Positions 17,341-26,157 of a stretch of DNA of 64,000 nucleotides are shown here, one piece after another. Position 1 is the stretch's first letter. Every line of letters begins with the position of its first letter. The notes beneath the pieces are model-generated. The model saw nothing but the letters and a program-made list of their open reading frames with translations. It was not told the origin of the DNA and searched no databases. The stretch is from assembly GCA_016647705.1 (NCBI GenBank), contig CM028326.1:26660901-26724900 (forward strand), read 5' to 3'. Made by a program: the position numbers and the translations under genes. Source of the DNA: Eucommia ulmoides. Taxonomy: Eukaryota; Streptophyta; Magnoliopsida; Garryales; Eucommiaceae.

Positions 17341-17592
17341 ATGTCGATTCTTATTTCCACCATTACCCCCGCCGGTCACCATACATTTAATGCAAAAAAA
17401 AAAAAAAAAGGTTGCAACCAAACTTGTTTCTCGTTTCTGTTCTCATAAATTAAAAAGAAACAATTTCAAGACAATGGTCATTACCAAACATGTTCTTATT
17501 TTTGAAATATTTCAGAACGGAAATCGAATTCTAATCTTATCATATCTCAGTTTATTAGGAGTAGAAATAAAAACACTAACCAAACACCACCT
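17341..17592. mobile_element. MITE-like repeat split by the MULE insertion (left part)
   Basis: Similar in type to the element at 14018-14511, ending GAAATAAAAACACTAACCAAACACCACCT. The Mutator-like element at 17593 is inserted at this end; the duplicated target AACACCACCT reappears at 26148. Confidence 0.5.
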
Positions 17593-17793
17593 GAGTTCTT
17601 TACCTAATAAATACAAAAAAAAAAAAAAAAAAAAATCTGACACCGAATTTATTTAAACTTATTTACCGATTCCGTGTATTTCGGAGTTGGTAGTGCCGGG
17701 AACTGAGATCCCGAGATTGCCAACCCCGGGATTTGGCCGATTAATTTTATTTTTTTTTTTGGACAGATGGTCCCGGGGTTGGTAACCCCGGGA
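17593..17793. repeat. Left terminal inverted repeat of the MULE
   Basis: Pairs with 25945-26147. Contains a poly-A run, ATTTACCGATTCCGTGTATT, and palindromic GGTCCCGGGGTTGGTAACCC-type motifs. The equal motifs in the other arm occur in the same order in reverse complement. Confidence 0.93.
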
Positions 17794-17970
17794 CCTTATG
17801 CTCACGGCTGCAGCTGCACAAGCAGCCGTGACCATCCCGGGATTGGTAACCCCGGGATCTTATGGTCACGGCTACAGCTGCTTGAAGTAGCAGCAGCTGC
17901 TTGTGCAGGTCCACAAGCAGCCGTAGCAGTGACCATAAGGTCCCGGGGTTACCAACCCCGGGACCATTCG
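17769..17970. repeat. GC-rich fold-back just inside the left TIR
   Basis: GGTCCCGGGGTTGGTAACCC at 17769 recurs in inverted form near 17940-17966 (GGTCCCGGGGTTACCAACCC, itself a near-palindrome). Between them CACGGCTGCAGCTGC and GCAGCTGCTTGTGC motifs also pair in inverted order. The 200-bp block could fold into a strong hairpin. The matching position in the right arm carries a shorter, different version. Confidence 0.75.
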
Positions 17971-18651
17971 TCTAAAAAAAATAAAAAATTAATCCGCCAA
18001 ATCCAACCCCTTCAGCAGCTGCTTGGAACTCTTTCCTCTCTCGGCCTTCTCCAACCGACCCCTTCTTACAACTCTTTCTCTCAGATCTTCAGGTAATTTT
18101 AATATATTTGTTAATTTGATTATTATATTTTTTACTTATTTAATCAATTAGTTTACTTAATTTATAATTAATTTGTTAATTTAGTTAATTTATTTTTTAA
18201 GTTATTTTGCTAGTTTAATTTATTAATTTAGTTATTTAATTAAAAATTAGGAACTTTAACATCTCAAAATTTGAATAAATTATTATTTAGTTAATCTGTT
18301 TATTATTTACTTTACTTATTTAATTTGTTAAGTAGTTAGTTAATTTAATTTGTTTGATTACTTGTTTAATTTCTTAGTTAGTTTGTTACTTTAATGTTTT
18401 TTTGACAACTATTTTTCGTGATGTTATCTACTTTATTTCTTATGTATTGTCTTTGTTATGTATTGCGTTTGTTATACCTTGTCTATATCATGTCTACCTT
18501 CGAAAAATTTTCTTTCAAATTCAAGAAGAATAAATATGTACGGTAGATTAACAACTTTTTAACCTCTACAAATATTAAAAAAAAAAAAAAAGGATTATTT
18601 ACAAAAAATTGTATTTACAATCCTATACTTAAACTACTACTATTTAACTAA
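17971..18651. other. MULE left subterminal region
   Basis: A pyrimidine-rich stretch to 18091 is followed by AT-rich DNA (TTAATTTGTTAATTTAGTTA-like). The AT-rich part resembles, in inverted orientation, the part of the transposase intron near 25240-25620. It contains the 3' flank of the PMD gene. No gene seen. Confidence 0.5.
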
Positions 18652-20992
18652 CTATGTACCACAAGGCCTCGGTCGGACGTTCCTCCGCCCTCGACGTTGA
18701 GCAATCGGAGGTTCCTCAACCTCGTCATGAAGCTGTGTAACTTGTCCATCGTCCCCCAACCATGGCACCGGTGACACTTGTCTTTCCAATCTTGTCAGTT
18801 GGACAAATGCCATTGGAGGAATCACGCCTGAAGTTGAGACAATTTTGTCCATCGCAGGAGTGAAGAATGAAGGTGACGGTTGTGTACCTAGCTGCAATGG
18901 CTCATGCGAATAAGGGTCGTGCATCTGGTACACGTCGGAAGGCCGAGCACCGTCACCCAATCCGTACGTGCTAGATGGTCCGTCATAAGCACCCATGTTG
19001 TACGATGTGGATGGTCCGACATCACCCACACTATCTGGATAGTAGGTATCAGAAGTCCATGGCTGAGGAGGAGACTGATGAGCAGGCTGAAGAGATGGAG
19101 GAACGTCAGCTGCCTCATGGCGCTTTACTTCTCGGTGCATCCTCCCAATGGTGCCATCATTGATGGCATAAGCCAACGCGATACCTGATTCCGCAGTACC
19201 CGACCGTAGAGTTAGATCACTCAAGCGTATCAGGTTCGATACCTCTGTATCCTACGAAACACATATAATTGTTTAATTAATACATTGAATAATAACAACA
19301 TAATCAAACTCAAATAACTAAACAGATGGTACAGTCAAATGGGGGCCATACTTCTAACGCAACTCGTCCTCCCGTTGCTAGATACCTAAACTGAGGTCGG
19401 TACTCCGGGTTGACCAAGATCCTTCGTGTGATTCTCCAATACCAGTCCATGTATCCTTGGTCAACCCCTATCCTTTACTGAAATTTGCGCATATCTAGTG
19501 CTCGTCGTCTATTCCACGCAACTACATGTGTGTGGTGCTTCTCAGTCCAGTTTACACCAAAGTATCCCCGTCGAGTCATTTTGTGCAAGTCCCGATCCAT
19601 AATTACCGGCTGAGGAACCCCTTGGCAATAACCAAACTGTCGTAGCATGCGCAGGGGATACGTGTATTCGACGACCTCGAAACAAATGAGAGGCAGCGAT
19701 GCTATCCATACATCTTCTCCATTTGTAGTATATGGAGGCAAAGTCGACAAGATATAGGGCATCCAAATAACTTGTCAAAACAAAATATAAATTTATTTAA
19801 ATAAATAAAGAAATAAATTTATTTAAATTTTGATATAAATAAATAAGTAACCTTGTCATTCTGCAAGCGATCTAACTGATCGCGATATACCACTAAAACA
19901 TGCATCGACAAGTTTTCTAAATTGAACTCAAGGGTCCACCTGTACAACAAACATATAAATCATAAGTTTAATATCCATAAATAAATATTTATTACATGGT
20001 AAATGAAATTAAAAATAAAATACGAATTAGTTACCAAACACCCCTTGGAGCAGCTGGGAACGTCACACCATTACCGAAGTCCAGTTCTCCGATTGCGATG
20101 CCATACTGGGGTTCAGGGATAACTCCAGGTCGAAGCCTCGACAACCGCTCCCAGGCCCAACACTCCAACAAAAATAGACAACCGGCTATGTCTTTCGTGT
20201 TGGCCTTCAACGCCTTACATAGCTCGCGGTAGAGGACTGCTAGCGTCGCACTGCCCCAGCTATACTTGACGGTAGGTGTCAAGTTACCAAGCAATGGGAG
20301 GTAGATTAGCCTGACGCTATTCTGCGATTTATCAGGCAGCAACATCTGGCCAAGTATAATCAAGCAATATGCACGTGCGTAGCAATGCATGACTTCCTCG
20401 TCGGCATCCTCAGGAACTTCGGCAAAGGTGTTCCGTAACTACTTGAGCTTCAAACACTCATTCCTAATCTGTGGCTCTGGCGGTACTACTCCAAGGAGCT
20501 AGAGGCAAAGTGCTTGCCATTCGGGTCCCGCTCGCGCTGGCTCATTGGCGATAACCGGCTTCCCATGCACGGGTAACCCCAACAAGACGGCAACGTCCTG
20601 TAACGTGATGGTCATCTCCCCGATGGGTAGATGGAAAGTGTGTGTTTCCGGACGCCATTTCTTTACCAATGCGGTTATGACGGCCCTATCTAACTGCTTC
20701 GGCCACAACCTGAACGGGCCGTAGAAACCGGCTGATTCTATCAATTGTATAATTTGAGGGAGGATGTTTTCTCTCCACTCTCCTCCATTGGATCCAGGAC
20801 AGTCAAGAGAACAAATATCCTGAAACATTAAATAAGACACAATAAATAACATTAAATTTTTTAAAAACTAAAATAAAAAAATTAATGCAATGCAATAACC
20901 TAAATATTTACCTGTGTTGCCCAGACTACTTCAGACCTATGCTGCACCTGCATATGTAGAACTGAAACATCTTCGGGTCCAGGGATTGACAT
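18652..20992 (-). pseudogene. Plant mobile domain (PMD, aminotransferase-like) protein in MULE
   Basis: Exons on the minus strand: 20912-20992, 20035-20819, 19852-19939, about 19352-19770 and 18652-19251. The N-terminus MSIPGPEDVSVLHMQVQHRS leads into the PMD core (GFYGPFRLWPKQLDRAVITA, HTFHLPIGEMTITLQDVAVL, LLGLPVHGKPV, WAWERLSRLRPG, VYRDQLDRLQND). It ends in a Pro/Ser-rich tail with RRGRRNVRPRPCGT. PMD proteins occur both as host silencing factors (MAIN, MAIL1) and inside plant MULE and Gypsy elements; this one is inside a MULE. In-frame stops lie at 20499-20501, 20439-20441 (TAG) and 19475-19477 (TAA). The exon 3/4 joint is one base out of phase as I read it. Role in the transposon is unknown. 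Confidence 0.85.
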
Positions 20993-21177
20993 AGCTGAAA
21001 TTTGGTCCGTCAACACTTGTGGTAAATTTGTTAGTATGAAATTAAAATTTAATGACATTTATAAATAAAATATAGCATTGATCATGAAGAAATGTGTGCA
21101 TGGAATTTATAATATATAAAATTTGACATAACAAACAAATAAAGTAGCATAAACATAATTATAATGAACCGACAAGA

Positions 21178-24100
21178 TTAATTGGGCATATGACGGGGTC
21201 GGGATGGATACCTCCGCCTATCATGTCCAGTTTGGGAACATAAACCACAACGATTTGTCATTATTCTCCGAGATTGATCCATCTCGTTTTGAATGCGAGT
21301 GGAATTTGGTCGACCACGATGCACAACCCGAAGTCTGTCATGATCTGGAATCAGGTTCGAAAAATTGGTCTCTAGCCAGTAGTTCTAGTGAATAATCGGG
21401 CGAAACGATGACTCCCATGCCATCAATTGGTTTGTCATTGTGTACTCAGCTGCAATATAGCGAAATGTATAAACTCCACTATACTCGGTGGCCGCAAGCA
21501 TATGGGAGCACGGATATCGCCAAATTTTATACTTTCCACATGTGCAATTAGCGTCATCCCCTAATGTGACTTCATGAGCGATCAGACCCCAATGAGAGTC
21601 TTTCTAGTTTTCACGTGGTAGATCTTGTTCTCTCTAGAAAAAAAATTATATTACATTAAATATGTGTCGATGCAGTTATATGTAACATGAAAATAATTAA
21701 AAAATAATAAATTACCGATTGAATATTTGAACTTCGTATGTTTTAAACTTGGCTTGAGATTTCAGTATTTTCTCAACGACGTGTTTAACATATACATAAC
21801 CATCGGCCGAGTCCTTTAGAGCTTGTTGTCGACCAATATCAAAGTATTTAACCATCCTGTAGAACGTAATCTTCACGGATGCAGTAATTGGAACATTTCT
21901 TGCACCCTTCAAACAATTGTTAAATACCTCTGCATAATTGGTTGTCATCACTCCCCAACGCTTACCATCGTCGTGTGCCCTGGTCCATTTATAAGGTGGA
22001 TGATTGCTCAACCATGCATGCGCCTGAACATCAATTTTTTTGATCTCTTCCATGATAGCATTATATTTTCAAATTTGTGTTGCAGCACCCGCATTCCAAG
22101 CAAGATCTTTGAGATGCTGATTTTTAGCAATCTTGTTGAAATTGCTGCAAAGGTGACGCAAACAAAATCGATGATGTCGGACAGGCTCATTATGTTGATT
22201 AAGCCAAATATTGTCAACCGCACTAGTAATGCCGCCGTGTCTGTCCGATATCAATGTTACCTCAGGGCGATTTTCGACAATATGCCTCTTAAGCATGTAG
22301 ATGAACCATCGCCAGCATCGGTAGTCCTCTGTCGGTACGATGGCGAATGCCAATGGATAGCACTTGTTAGACGGCGTCATTCCAATGGCGATTAAAATAT
22401 TTCCCTCGTATTTACCATACAAGTGCGTCCCGTCGATGGTGATTATGGGGCGACAATAACGCCATCCGTCAACTGAAGCTTTGAATGCCCAAAATACCAT
22501 GTCGAATGTCTTGTAGGTAGGCATATCAGTCGACACAGTCCTCCACTCGACAATCGTTCCCGGATTATAGTGCTGCAATGCGAACATAAACTTCGGCAAC
22601 TTCTGATAAGATTCGTCCCAATCTCCGAACAAGGTCTCGATGGCTTTAGCTCTAGCCATCCAAGCTTTTCGGTAGGAGATGGTGAATCCCTGAGACTCTT
22701 TGATGTAAGCCACAATCACGCCAATCTTCAATTCTGGATCCTGTTCGACTTGTCCAAGTATTAGGTTCGCAATGAGTCCATAATCCAAATTTTTATGATC
22801 TACAGCAGTATGATTATAAAAACATGTGTATTGCCCTTCATACTGCGTAATCTGAAACATACTGTGACTTTTTTTCCTACCCGCCCGCAACCTCCAACTG
22901 CATCCATGCAAACAATGAACCGACCAGACCTTTTTGTTCGTTTCCAACACACGAAACTCTTTGTTTTTCTTTACGTGGTAATATTTAACGGCCTGCTGCA
23001 CATGTTCCTTATCCTTAAAGACCATACCAATACGAAATTCATCCATCTCTGGTGTCCAAATTTTTTTCCGCAATTTCGGCTCGTATTTCGCCATATCATC
23101 GTCATCACCCCATTCCAAGTTACTGAAAAATGGAATATCCCTTTCCAACGGTAATTGTTGATTCTCACTCCCTTGCCCACTAGGCCCAGCATCTACAACT
23201 TCATCTGGGTCAAACGCAACATCTCCATCTAACTCTTCTTCTGACACATCATGACGACTATCAATTGTATCAAACTCACCACCATAATTACTTGTGTCAT
23301 GTTACGGTGGACTACTTGGTGAATAATGGTGATGTGGAAGACCAGAGTTGGTACCCTGATCATGATCAGATTGGGGGTGCGACATGAGAGTACTGTGGGA
23401 ATGATATTGTTATGGAATGTAAGGGGGTGGGACAATATAATTAGACTGGACTGCTTGGGAGAAGGTGCCAAAAAATTGGCCATCAGATTGGCTACTGTAC
23501 GGATTAAAACTATGACTCATTAAGTTGGTAAAATGACCACTTCGAGGGAAAAAATTCGAACCATCAGCAAATGCTCGTTCTACCTCTACATACACCTCAA
23601 CAGCAAGAAGCGAGGGTATGTAAAGTGGTAACTCAAGTACTTGATTTAATGCTGAGTCATCCCCGATAGAAAATAGGTTATATTTATAATTCGCCCCGAA
23701 AAGTGCCATCGACATCCTACACTTCAGTTTTAAATTCCCATCAGCCTCATTCTCAAGAACACACGGTTTTATCATCTCAATTAATTCATCTAAGGTTGTT
23801 CCCCTATGGACAACCAAAGATTTTATAGCTGATGTACTGTAACAAATCCCGAATTCAGTACCTTCCAATATTCTACCACCCCAATACAATAACAAACGAA
23901 CGTGATCTATTTCAAGCGGCTATCATTTCAAAAGGCAAAACAAAACAAGAAAATAATATAATCAACTAAAACTCAATCATAAAAGTATGTTCTTATACCA
24001 ATGTTTACAGTGTTAATTTTTTATGGCTTTGAGTATGTTTTAAACCAATATATATATTTTTCTAATTTGCATAATTTTGAGGGGTCAAAGTGCACAATTT

Positions 24101-24699
24101 TTAATTAAAAATTTATAAATTAAACAACTAAATTCATAAATTTAACTTAAAATTTAACTAACTAATTCACAATTTTAACTAAATCAAAAAAAATAAACAA
24201 CTAACAATTTATTTTAAAACAATAAAATAAATTTTATATTTTTCTAATTGTCATACTTTGAAGGGTCAAAGTGCATTTTTTTAATTAAACTAAAATTAAC
24301 TTACAATTTATTTTAAACCAATATATATATTTTTCTAATTTGCATAATTTTGAGGGGTCAAAGTGCACAATTTTTAATTAAAAATTGATAATTAAACAAC
24401 TACATTCATAAATTTAACTAACTAATTCACAATTTTAACTAAATTAAAAAAATAAACAACTAACAATTTATTTTAAAACAATAAAATAAATTTTATATTT
24501 TTCTAATTGTCATACTTTGAAGGGTCAAAGTGCATTTTTTTTAATTAAACTCAAATTAACTTACAATTTATTTTAAACCAATATATATATTTTTCTAATT
24601 TGCATAATTTTGAGGGGTCAAAGTGCACAATGTTTAATTAAAAATTGATAATTAAACAACTACATTCATAAATTAAACTAACTAATTAACAATTTTAAC

Positions 24700-24739
<40 letters not shown>

Positions 24740-25662
24740 CCAACTAACAATTTATTTTAAAATAATACATTAAATTTTATATTTTTCTAAAACAATACAT
24801 TAAATTTTATATTTTTGTAATTGTCATACTTTGAGGGGTCAAAATGTAATTTTTTTTAATTAAACAACTAAATTCAAAAAATAAACTCAAATTAACTTAG
24901 AATTTATTTTAAACCAATATATTTTAATTTTAATTTTTATAATTTTTCAAATTTTGAGGGGTCAAAGTGCACATTTTTTAATTAAAATTTTATAATTAAA
25001 CAACTAAATTCATAAATTAAACTAAATAATTCAATATTTTAACTAAATTAAAAAAAAAAAAAAAAAACAACTAACAATTTATTTTAAAACTTTTCTAAAA
25101 CAATACATTAAATCTTATATTTTTCTAATTGTTATACTTTAAGGGGTCAAAGTGTATTTTTCTAACTAACTAACAATGTTTTTAAATAATATATTAATCT
25201 ATATTTTTCTACACATGTGAAAGGGGCCATAGTGTAATTTTTAATTTAACAACTAAATTAACAAATTAAACTAACCAACTAATTTACAAATTAATTTAAC
25301 TAACGAACCAACAAATTAAACAAGTAAACTAACTAACAAAATAAACAAAATTAACTAACAAATTAGACAAGTAACAAATTAAAATTAAACTATCCTCTAA
25401 TGTTTTTTTCATGTTTTAAAAAAATTAAATTAACAACTAAACTAACTAATTTATTAAATAGTGTATTATATAATGTGTAAAAAACAAGTAATCAATTAAA
25501 CTAACAAACAAGAAAATTAAACAAAAAAATTAAACTAACAATTAAACAAGTAAGTAAATTTAATAAGTAAAAAACATACTAATCTAATTAACAAATAAAT
25601 TAAAAAAATTAAAATAAACTTACCTTTTGTAGTAGGAGGAACATGTTGTGAAGTTGTGACAT
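21178..25662 (-). pseudogene. MURA-type MULE transposase
   Basis: DDE transposase that binds the TIRs and cuts and pastes the element. Exons: 25624-25662 (MSQLHNMFLLLQK), 21716-23919 and 21178-21633. Order: N-terminal domain (LLLYWGGRILEGTEFGI), acidic linker, MuDR DNA-binding region (GMVFKDKEHVQQAVKYYHV), MULE catalytic core, SWIM zinc finger (CTCGKYKIWRYPCSH), and a C-terminal zinc knuckle-like CGLCSQTGHDRRRY whose last Cys is Tyr. The DDE triad is present: Asp in TIDGTHL (22432-22434), Asp in SDRHGG (22243-22245), Glu in TTNYAEVFNN (21928-21930). In-frame stops: 23410-23412 and 23302-23304 (TAA), 22069-22071 (TGA), 21604-21606 and 21385-21387 (TAG). The exon 2/3 phase is uncertain. Start chosen because exon 1 joins in frame. 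Confidence 0.9.
23920..25623 (-). repeat. Tandem AT-rich repeats filling transposase intron 1
   Basis: Four or more diverged copies of a unit of about 270-300 bp, each holding TTTTGAGGGGTCAAAGTGCA and CATACTTTGAAGGGTCAAAG. They start near 24050, 24310, 24575 and 24900. Very AT-rich, with a poly-A run at 24706-24737. It separates the tiny first exon of the transposase from exon 2. Confidence 0.8.
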
Positions 25663-25944
25663 TTGTCAAATATTGATGAAGAAAATCGAGCAAATAAATG
25701 ATGAACAATCTTCGTTAAATTGAAAAAAAAAATGGAATGATCAAAATTTGTGAAATTGAGGAAGGAACAAGGAGAAGGAGAAGGAGAAGGCTGAGAGTTG
25801 CATGAAATGGAGGAGGAGGGTTGGGGTTTATAAGGTTGGGGGGGGGCAAACCGTCCGGTGGTTTTCAAAACCGGACGGACAGCTGCATAAAGCAGCTGGT
25901 CACGGCTGCTTTAAGCAGCTGCTTTTGCATCCGTGGTTGAACAA

Positions 25945-26147
25945 CATCCCGGGGTTACCAACCCCGGGACCATCTGTCCAAAAAAAAAAAAAAAAATTTA
26001 ATCGGCCAAATCCCGGGGTTGGCAATCCAGGGATCTCAGTTCCCGGGACTACCGACCCCGAAATACACGGAATCGGTAAATAAGTTTAAATAAATCCGGT
26101 GTCAGAATTTTTTTTTTTTTTTTTTGTATTTATTAGGTAAAGAACTC
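25945..26147. repeat. Right terminal inverted repeat of the MULE
   Basis: Reverse complement of the left TIR apart from a handful of differences and poly-A length. It ends GGTAAAGAACTC and is followed by the duplicated target. Confidence 0.93.
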
Positions 26148-26157
26148 AACACCACCT

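Follow-up and report, generated by a model that had tools for sequence, protein, structure and literature searches.

A decayed two-gene MULE of Eucommia ulmoides and the possible VANC-like anti-silencing role of its PMD gene

Published MULEs already include elements that bear PMD, both in sense and in antisense, and the association of a MURA transposase with PMD is catalogued for several plant MULE groups in Table 1 of PMC6446971. The same source describes MuDR as an element of two genes, mudrA and mudrB, and the VANDALs as elements devoid of TIRs or provided with short degenerate ones, its table crediting the VANDAL group with 'PMD and/or DUF in half the members'. According to the account given in PMC5735166, VANC proteins carry DUF1985 and bind family-specific motifs located in non-coding tandem repeats. 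An anti-silencing role for the PMD of MULEs has also been proposed previously, in PMC5418596 and PMC8616336.

The MULE considered here occupies positions 17593-26147 of the window, i.e., the whole stretch of 64,000 nucleotides analysed from Eucommia ulmoides (GCA_016647705.1, CM028326.1), and possesses both transposon ends and a target duplication. Its two genes are located on the minus strand, the PMD gene lying downstream of MURA; a previous sequence-only reading of this DNA had claimed this arrangement, with which the Pfam profile matches agree. The upstream gene matches PF03108, PF10551 and SWIM (PF04434), and the downstream gene matches PF10536 (PMD) in three open pieces belonging to two exons. 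The features are given below, with in-frame stops counted against the exons of another copy, L048.

17583-17592, no strand: left target site duplication, AACACCACCT, identical to 26148-26157
17593-17834, plus strand: left terminal inverted repeat (blastn and repeat search)
18652-19251, minus strand: PMD exon 5, variable part with an arginine-rich C-terminus, open to the stop codon
19325-19774, minus strand: PMD exon 4, PF10536 positions 238-324, one in-frame stop
19840-19941, minus strand: PMD exon 3 (matched stretch), from the match to the L048 exons
20034-20822, minus strand: PMD exon 2, PF10536, two in-frame TAG stops
20912-20992, minus strand: PMD exon 1, which has an ATG of its own and lies 189 bases beyond the end of MURA
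21178-21582, minus strand: MURA exon 2, SWIM zinc finger PF04434, CCHC-like end (by eye) and stop codon, one internal stop
21715-23919, minus strand: MURA exon 1, with PF03108 and PF10551 and a match over 735 codons, three in-frame stops
24003-25236, no strand: tandem-repeat array upstream of MURA, nine copies of GGGGYCAAAGTGYA, all on the plus strand
25897-26147, minus strand: right terminal inverted repeat (blastn and repeat search)
26148-26157, no strand: right target site duplication, AACACCACCT, identical to 17583-17592

The termini, the inverted repeats and the perfect 10-bp target duplication previously claimed for the element were all found, with AACACCACCT on both sides. The earlier figure of 200 bp for the TIRs, which are real, is slightly short because the inverted repeat (17592-17834 versus 25897-26148) aligns over 254 columns, i.e., about 250 bp, with 88-89% identity, the outermost 40 bases being identical between the two ends. 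Of seven related GC-rich palindromic repeats of the TCCCGGGGTTGGTAACCCCGGGA type, four lie in the left end region 17706-17963. The target duplications of MULEs range from 8 to 11 bp in length, and the window element, with its MURA-type transposase, TIRs, 10-bp target duplication and SWIM zinc finger, is a genuine member of this group. Its description as structurally complete holds for the ends and not for the genes, which contain the seven in-frame stops listed above; the window copy is therefore dead and decayed, neither full protein being encodable. A search for a solved structure of a PMD relative, using one exon 2 piece as the query, returned none at E <= 1.

The family of the window element is large in this 947-Mb plant genome, where no fewer than four lineages (A, B, C and D) combine MURA with a PMD gene that is separate and has five exons. 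Among the 68 scored A-type MURA copies, a scored A-type PMD match occurs downstream on the same strand in 62 and on the opposite strand in none, while a broken PMD follows MURA in four of the remaining six. PMD or pieces of it thus accompany 66 of the 68 copies, and PMD-bearing copies, far from being unique to the locus, are numerous. In 58 of the 62 A-type MURA-PMD pairs, one or both of the scored stretches contain a stop. A fusion of MURA with PMD is not supported: in a survey covering 12 of the sense loci, the MURA stop codon is retained in all 12 copies and PMD has its own ATG in 11. The full PMD is readable through GT-AG introns in two of the four copies tried, as proteins of 664 (A) and 683 (B) amino acids. 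The PF10551 and PF03108 transposase was also confirmed in one B and one C copy, and matches to MURA exon 2 (SWIM) extend to further loci of A as well as to C and D loci.

In lineage B, PMD is located on the strand opposite to MURA in 26 of the 34 B-type MURA copies and on the same strand in none, the other eight being without PMD among the matches listed. The B element exhibits a 10-bp target duplication and TIRs of about 3.3 kb, and many near-identical copies occur in this lineage; the only B element read from end to end yielded no SWIM exon (MURA exon 2). An independent capture of PMD in lineage B, which the opposite orientation could suggest, is rejected by the homology of the B PMD to the A PMD, with which it aligns at 80% over 2.7 kb, by the end of MURA exon 2 carried by the B PMD block, and by the occurrence of L030, a decayed sister of the B PMD (tree support 100/99; dS 0.13-0.16). 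The sense orientation of this sister indicates a later date for the inversion in B, and the PMD block of this lineage is inverted yet still kept. The inverted layout is not supported as the cause of recent spread, because the sense lineage C also contains near-identical copies (L051 versus L018, PMD exons 1-4, dN 0, dS 0.018).

Both MURA and PMD are under purifying selection between lineages. For five pairs with dS of about 0.4-0.9, dN/dS amounts to 0.15-0.22 for MURA and 0.28-0.42 for PMD, in counts that include copies with stops and drop only the stop codons themselves. The values for MURA and PMD are, respectively, 0.19 and 0.33 (A-B), 0.19 and 0.28 (A-D), and 0.22 and 0.29 (B-D), with bootstrap limits of 0.22-0.42 for the PMD values. 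A PMD dN/dS of 1 or more occurs in 0 of 1000 bootstrap replicates in each of six copy pairs, which answers in the negative the question, raised by the sequence-only reading, of whether PMD evolves neutrally. The PMD/MURA ratio of dN/dS is only 1.06 to 2.77, and its confidence range includes 1 in three of the six pairs. Comparisons within lineage A give higher PMD values (dN/dS 0.46-0.73 over exons 1-4), as could be expected of decaying copies and also of weaker constraint. The conclusions leave aside the pairs with saturated dS, namely, for PMD exons 1-4, every A-C and every host pair.

The non-coding DNA of lineages A and B carries one short motif in arrays that resemble VANC targets, a feature which is new as far as the literature was searched. 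The motif, picked by eye from the array, occurs with up to two mismatches in nine copies in the window element and 51 copies in the B element. Tandem duplication by itself multiplies motif copies. The array of lineage A occurs on the MURA side only, and those of lineage B lie mostly within the inverted repeats of about 3.3 kb. A single motif common to every lineage is not supported, the C and D loci giving 0 matches each (two mismatches or fewer) and containing other repeats; the borders of the D element were not found. The arrays could also bind the transposase instead of PMD.

In profile comparisons, DUF1985 is matched by nine of 13 PMD rows, which include close relatives, and is the sole other family matched by more than two rows. 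In the reverse search, PMD is matched, colinearly, by all three DUF1985 proteins, which are all genomic and 88% alike. The hhalign probability for PMD versus DUF1985 is 94.6, the profiles being shallow and the scores below the Pfam cut-offs. This match in both directions, new as far as the literature was searched, suggests a remote kinship of PMD with proteins by which transposons lift the silencing imposed by their host.

The co-inheritance of MURA and PMD, the selection on PMD, its status as a separate gene, the link to DUF1985 and the arrays were all counted in favour of a VANC-like anti-silencing function, which we tentatively infer as the most likely role of PMD in this dead two-gene MULE family. 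Working like the VANC of VANDAL elements, the PMD protein would be the anti-silencing factor of its element: it would bind the short motifs repeated in the non-coding DNA of that element and, once bound, would remove or block the silencing marks at these motifs, and the expression of MURA would then be allowed.

It is unlikely that PMD is instead a transposition accessory factor comparable to the mudrB of MuDR, which would aid end binding or integration and play no role in silencing. The mudrA and mudrB genes of maize are convergent, an arrangement shared by lineage B, and the inverted repeats that harbour most of the B arrays are where sites for the transposase or a helper are expected. In addition, the B copy read whole is without the SWIM exon and the lineage is rich in near-identical copies, which would fit a partial takeover of end binding by another protein. 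However, the array of lineage A is restricted to the MURA side, and it is in silencing, not in integration, that the PMD relatives VANC and MAIN/MAIL1 have been described (PMC5418596, PMC5735166, as far as these accounts go).

Rather improbable, too, is a host-derived PMD that would now block the host's MAIN/MAIL1/PP7L complex, serving as a decoy or as a dominant-negative mimic of it. Host PMD proteins are reported to act with PP7L in TE silencing (PMC7156037, PMC8616336), and the genome contains, at C4:25.80 Mb, an intron-bearing PMD gene whose 7-kb locus is free of MURA matches; the 150 candidates scored, out of 1958, include no second close copy of it. The MULE PMDs are, however, only about 42% identical to this gene over exon 2, the host row stands on a long branch with an unsure place in a tree composed of this genome's rows only, without a named MAIN/MAIL sequence, and motif arrays would be superfluous if silencing were blocked in general. 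That PMD is a captured Pack-MULE-type passenger without function for the element is very improbable: host gene pieces are captured by MULEs (PMC5418596) and stops affect 58 of the 62 A pairs, but a PMD dN/dS below 1 in all six pairs rejects neutrality, PMD persists across several lineages and has survived an inversion, and selection wholly before capture is unlikely because the A-B dS values of MURA (0.40) and PMD (0.41) match.

The VANC-like anti-silencing role leads to a broader proposal, possible but doubtful, in which PMD and the DUF1985 of VANC would belong to a single superfamily of anti-silencing factors carried by transposons. PMD would bind lineage-specific arrays in its own element (GGGGTCAAAGTGCA in A, GGGGCSAAAGTGTA in B) and MAIN/MAIL1 would be related host proteins, one domain thus occurring on both sides of the arms race. 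The putative sequence link ties PMD to plant transposon proteins of demonstrated anti-silencing action, and this genome offers several two-gene lineages, a natural inversion, measured selection and candidate target motifs. With motifs that can be named, a guess on the role of PMD in transposons becomes testable by binding and methylation.

With respect to the known systems, the PMD-bearing groups 42 and 45-50, as described by Dupeyron et al. 2019 (PMC6446971), similarly associate a MURA with SWIM and a PMD gene of either orientation, with TIRs and 9-10 bp target duplications, a likeness of gene content and ends. They differ from the present elements in that both orientations occur here among close relatives, within one genome and with homologous PMD; moreover, the inverted copy read whole has no SWIM exon, and the selection acting on PMD was quantified. 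In grasses and Amborella (PMC5418596), a MULE-borne PMD likewise occurs, there fused to the transposase, whereas here PMD is separate from MURA. The VANDAL/VANC system of Arabidopsis, as presented in PMC5735166 and PMC10398659, is comparable in consisting of a MULE with an additional gene, whose DUF1985 domain appears to be related to PMD, in its non-coding motif arrays that vary from lineage to lineage, to which the arrays of A and B may correspond, and in the lower conservation of the additional protein relative to the transposase. In contrast, the Eucommia elements possess PMD in place of DUF1985 as well as long terminal inverted repeats. Finally, the maize MuDR is also a two-gene MULE, and the genes of lineage B face each other as well, but here PMD would take the place of mudrB.

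The transposon that combines a MULE transposase gene (MURA) with a plant mobile domain gene (PMD) is real, old and under selection. The copy of the window, which belongs to a lineage named A, displays the following features:

17583-17592 and 26148-26157: 10-bp target duplication AACACCACCT, flanking the element on either side
17593-26147: MULE copy, with MURA (PF03108, PF10551, SWIM) followed by PMD (PF10536), both on the minus strand
17706-17963 and 25944-26063: CCCGGG-rich palindromes (TCCCGGGGTTGGTAACCCCGGGA type), seven related copies distributed over the two end regions
between 24081 and 25236: array of GGGGYCAAAGTGYA, nine copies in a single orientation (up to 2 mismatches)

The exact termini, the target duplication and the occurrence of both genes on one strand, as described in the sequence-only reading, were borne out: the outermost 40 bases of both ends are identical, the inverted repeats share 88-89% identity over ~250 bases, and a 10-base direct repeat precisely bordering an inverted repeat is very unlikely to arise by chance (~1 in a million). 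The claim of a structurally complete element holds for the ends but not for the genes: when matched to the exons of copy L048, MURA contains four in-frame stops and PMD three, seven in total. The window copy is therefore not a working element but a fossil whose ends are well preserved.

PMD-bearing copies are not unique to this locus on contig C2; uniqueness would, according to the same reading, have spoken against a functional transposon. Searches of the 946.7 Mb genome yielded at least 51 matches to the TIR (40 of 530 candidates scored), at least 102 to the MURA core (102 of 4754) and at least 145 to PMD exon 2 (145 of 1818), which are lower bounds because a fraction of the candidates was scored. 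By pairing the MURA-core and PMD exon 2 lists, 62 A pairs and 26 pairs of a second lineage, B, were recognized among the matches listed. Among the 68 A-type MURA copies (at least 87% identity, window copy included), these 62 are followed downstream by an A-type PMD in the same orientation, and no A-type PMD lies in the opposite one; when the six others, with no PMD listed, were fetched, same-strand PMD pieces occurred in four, and PMD was absent from the ~1.7 kb read at the remaining two. Of the 34 B-type MURA copies (83-85% identity), 26 are followed downstream by a B-type PMD lying on the other strand; a same-strand one occurs in no case, and for the remaining eight no PMD is listed. Both scored stretches are stop-free in 4/62 A pairs versus 15/26 B pairs.

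In L051, the copy of lineage C, the MURA exons and the PMD exon stretches 1, 2, 4 and 5 are open, the exon 3 stretch contains one stop within the match, and a splice search found no full PMD frame; in L050, the copy of lineage D, both MURA and PMD exon 5 are interrupted by stops. Both retain the sense layout. The MURA synonymous distance between A and C exceeds 1 (1.2-1.4), and the MURA-PMD pairing is therefore old. In two of the four copies tried, PMD can be read across five exons separated by four GT-AG introns, giving 664 residues (A copy) and 683 residues (B copy), both ending with an arginine-rich tail. A fused MURA-PMD form is not supported: the MURA stop is kept in 12/12 sense copies examined, and PMD has an ATG of its own, located 187-252 bases past that stop, in 11 of the 12.

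One B element was read whole (C2:2604705-2617055; 12,351 bases; ends GAGTTGTTTACC...GGTAAACAACTC). It is bordered by a perfect 10-base target duplication, ATTATATGAG, and its inverted repeats of ~3.3 kb (87%) contain tandem repeats. Compared to A, the PMD block is 80% identical over 2.7 kb and MURA aligns in reverse at 86-87%. Next to the inverted PMD lies the 3' end of MURA exon 2 (~13 codons with the stop); the rest of exon 2, including the SWIM finger, was not found within the element. The closest B relative in the PMD tree (L030, support 100/99) is decayed, yet retains exon 2 as well as the sense layout, and the inversion in B therefore looks derived. From the one B copy read whole and the abundance of near-identical B copies, we infer that B spread following the loss of the SWIM exon.

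The dN/dS values were estimated by the Nei-Gojobori method with 500 codon bootstraps, using all five exons for PMD.

dN/dS of PMD (range in brackets) and MURA, and synonymous distances, between copies
A-B: PMD 0.33 (0.26-0.42), MURA 0.19; synonymous distance MURA 0.40, PMD 0.41
A-D: PMD 0.28 (0.22-0.36), MURA 0.19; synonymous distance MURA 0.68, PMD 0.81
B-D: PMD 0.29 (0.22-0.36), MURA 0.22; synonymous distance MURA 0.62, PMD 0.78
A-L030: PMD 0.42 (0.32-0.52), MURA 0.15
A-L029: PMD 0.29 (0.22-0.37), MURA 0.15
B-L030 (closer pair): PMD 0.39, MURA 0.37
D-L029 (closer pair): PMD 0.40, MURA 0.27
A-window (closer pair): PMD 0.46, MURA 0.24

Neutral evolution of PMD, the second outcome named in the sequence-only reading, is rejected: the PMD value reached 1 in 0/1000 bootstraps for each of six pairs. 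The PMD:MURA ratio of dN/dS lies between 1.06 and 2.77, and its confidence range exceeds 1 for three of the six pairs. Closer pairs show raised values in both genes, and the 0.46-0.73 observed for PMD exons 1-4 among A copies matches what would be expected where many copies decay. The synonymous distances of both genes are similar, as would be expected had they travelled together.

Other PMD loci occur in the genome. Nine listed PMD matches (L009-L017) are clustered within 97 kb (C4:2507473-2604771), six of them stop-free across the whole domain, with long open frames of ~780-910 aa in the two inspected (L009, L011); four that were compared share only 21-26% identity with an intron-bearing PMD gene (C4:25.80 Mb). 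The cluster looks like a tandem expansion of host PMD genes. Another PMD gene, L063 (C9:5407500-5413500), with mostly open exon matches, adjoins remnants of MURA that are decayed (39-49% identity) and contain stops. In this gene, the exon 2 match extends to about query residue 220, as in the host gene L052 and in L064 and unlike in the A-D elements, and L063 is possibly a domesticated MULE PMD or the relic of an old capture.

With respect to non-coding DNA, GGGGYCAAAGTGYA (up to 2 mismatches) occurs eight times, scattered, in the other 55 kb of the window, 7 and 15 times in two further A loci, and not at all in the C locus, the D locus and the host PMD gene. The B element forms a mirror image: the 26 copies of its left half all point in reverse, the 25 of its right half all forward. 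At one mismatch, 10 window matches (nine in the element) compare with 0.02 expected, for a motif picked post hoc and multiplied by tandem duplication. In a motif-free test, the commonest 9-mers containing three or more G or C reached 7-15 copies in three A loci (non-coding DNA on the MURA side) and in the two B arrays (shuffles at most 4), 7 per side in C (shuffles at most 3), and 5 and 6 in the D locus (shuffles at most 4 and 3), whose repeats may lie inside the element. In C, both end regions carry palindromic repeats of their own, and the CCCGGG-rich palindromes of the window element are a second candidate protein-binding repeat.

Thirteen PMD rows from the genome, drawn from MULEs, the host and the cluster and in several cases closely related, were scanned against Pfam. 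Four families were matched in total: besides PMD, DUF1985 by nine rows and the remaining two by two rows and one row. Reciprocally, three DUF1985 proteins of the same genome (88% alike) match PMD (E 1e-4 to 1e-3, profile positions 26-153), and hhalign aligned both families with a probability of 94.6 over 130 columns, in a single comparison of shallow profiles. The VANC proteins contain DUF1985 (PMC5735166, legend of Fig. 5) and undo the silencing of VANDAL MULEs through binding to short motifs within tandem repeats of non-coding DNA. A 72-bp tandem repeat overlaps the last PMD exon of the D copy (L050:2438-2704); the variable regions of VANC are likewise reported to be associated with tandem repeats (PMC5735166). 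The sections consulted of the literature retrieved for DUF1985, VANC and plant mobile domain hold no statement of PMD-DUF1985 homology, the nearest being the entry "PMD and/or DUF in half the members" for the VANDAL group (PMC6446971); one paper that mentions VANC21 as well as the plant mobile domain covers them in separate talks. Taken together, the link with DUF1985 and the arrays favour a VANC-like model as the most likely one, in which PMD would exert a putative binding and demethylation activity. Same-strand pairs of DUF1985 matches ~5 kb apart also occur at several places in the genome (e.g., C4:21694371 and C4:21699437; C8:66717178 and C8:66722235), suggestive of a further repeated element that carries two genes of this type.

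The two-gene MULE belongs to a known kind. In MuDR, the two genes face each other. MULE groups 42 and 45-50 are recorded with a PMD in sense or antisense orientation (PMC6446971, Table 1). An anti-silencing role of MULE PMDs has already been guessed in print (PMC5418596, PMC8616336), and TE-borne PMDs have been proposed as a counter-silencing strategy alongside VANC21 (PMC8616336). In contrast to the transposase-PMD fusions reported for grasses and Amborella (PMC5418596), MURA and PMD are unfused here.
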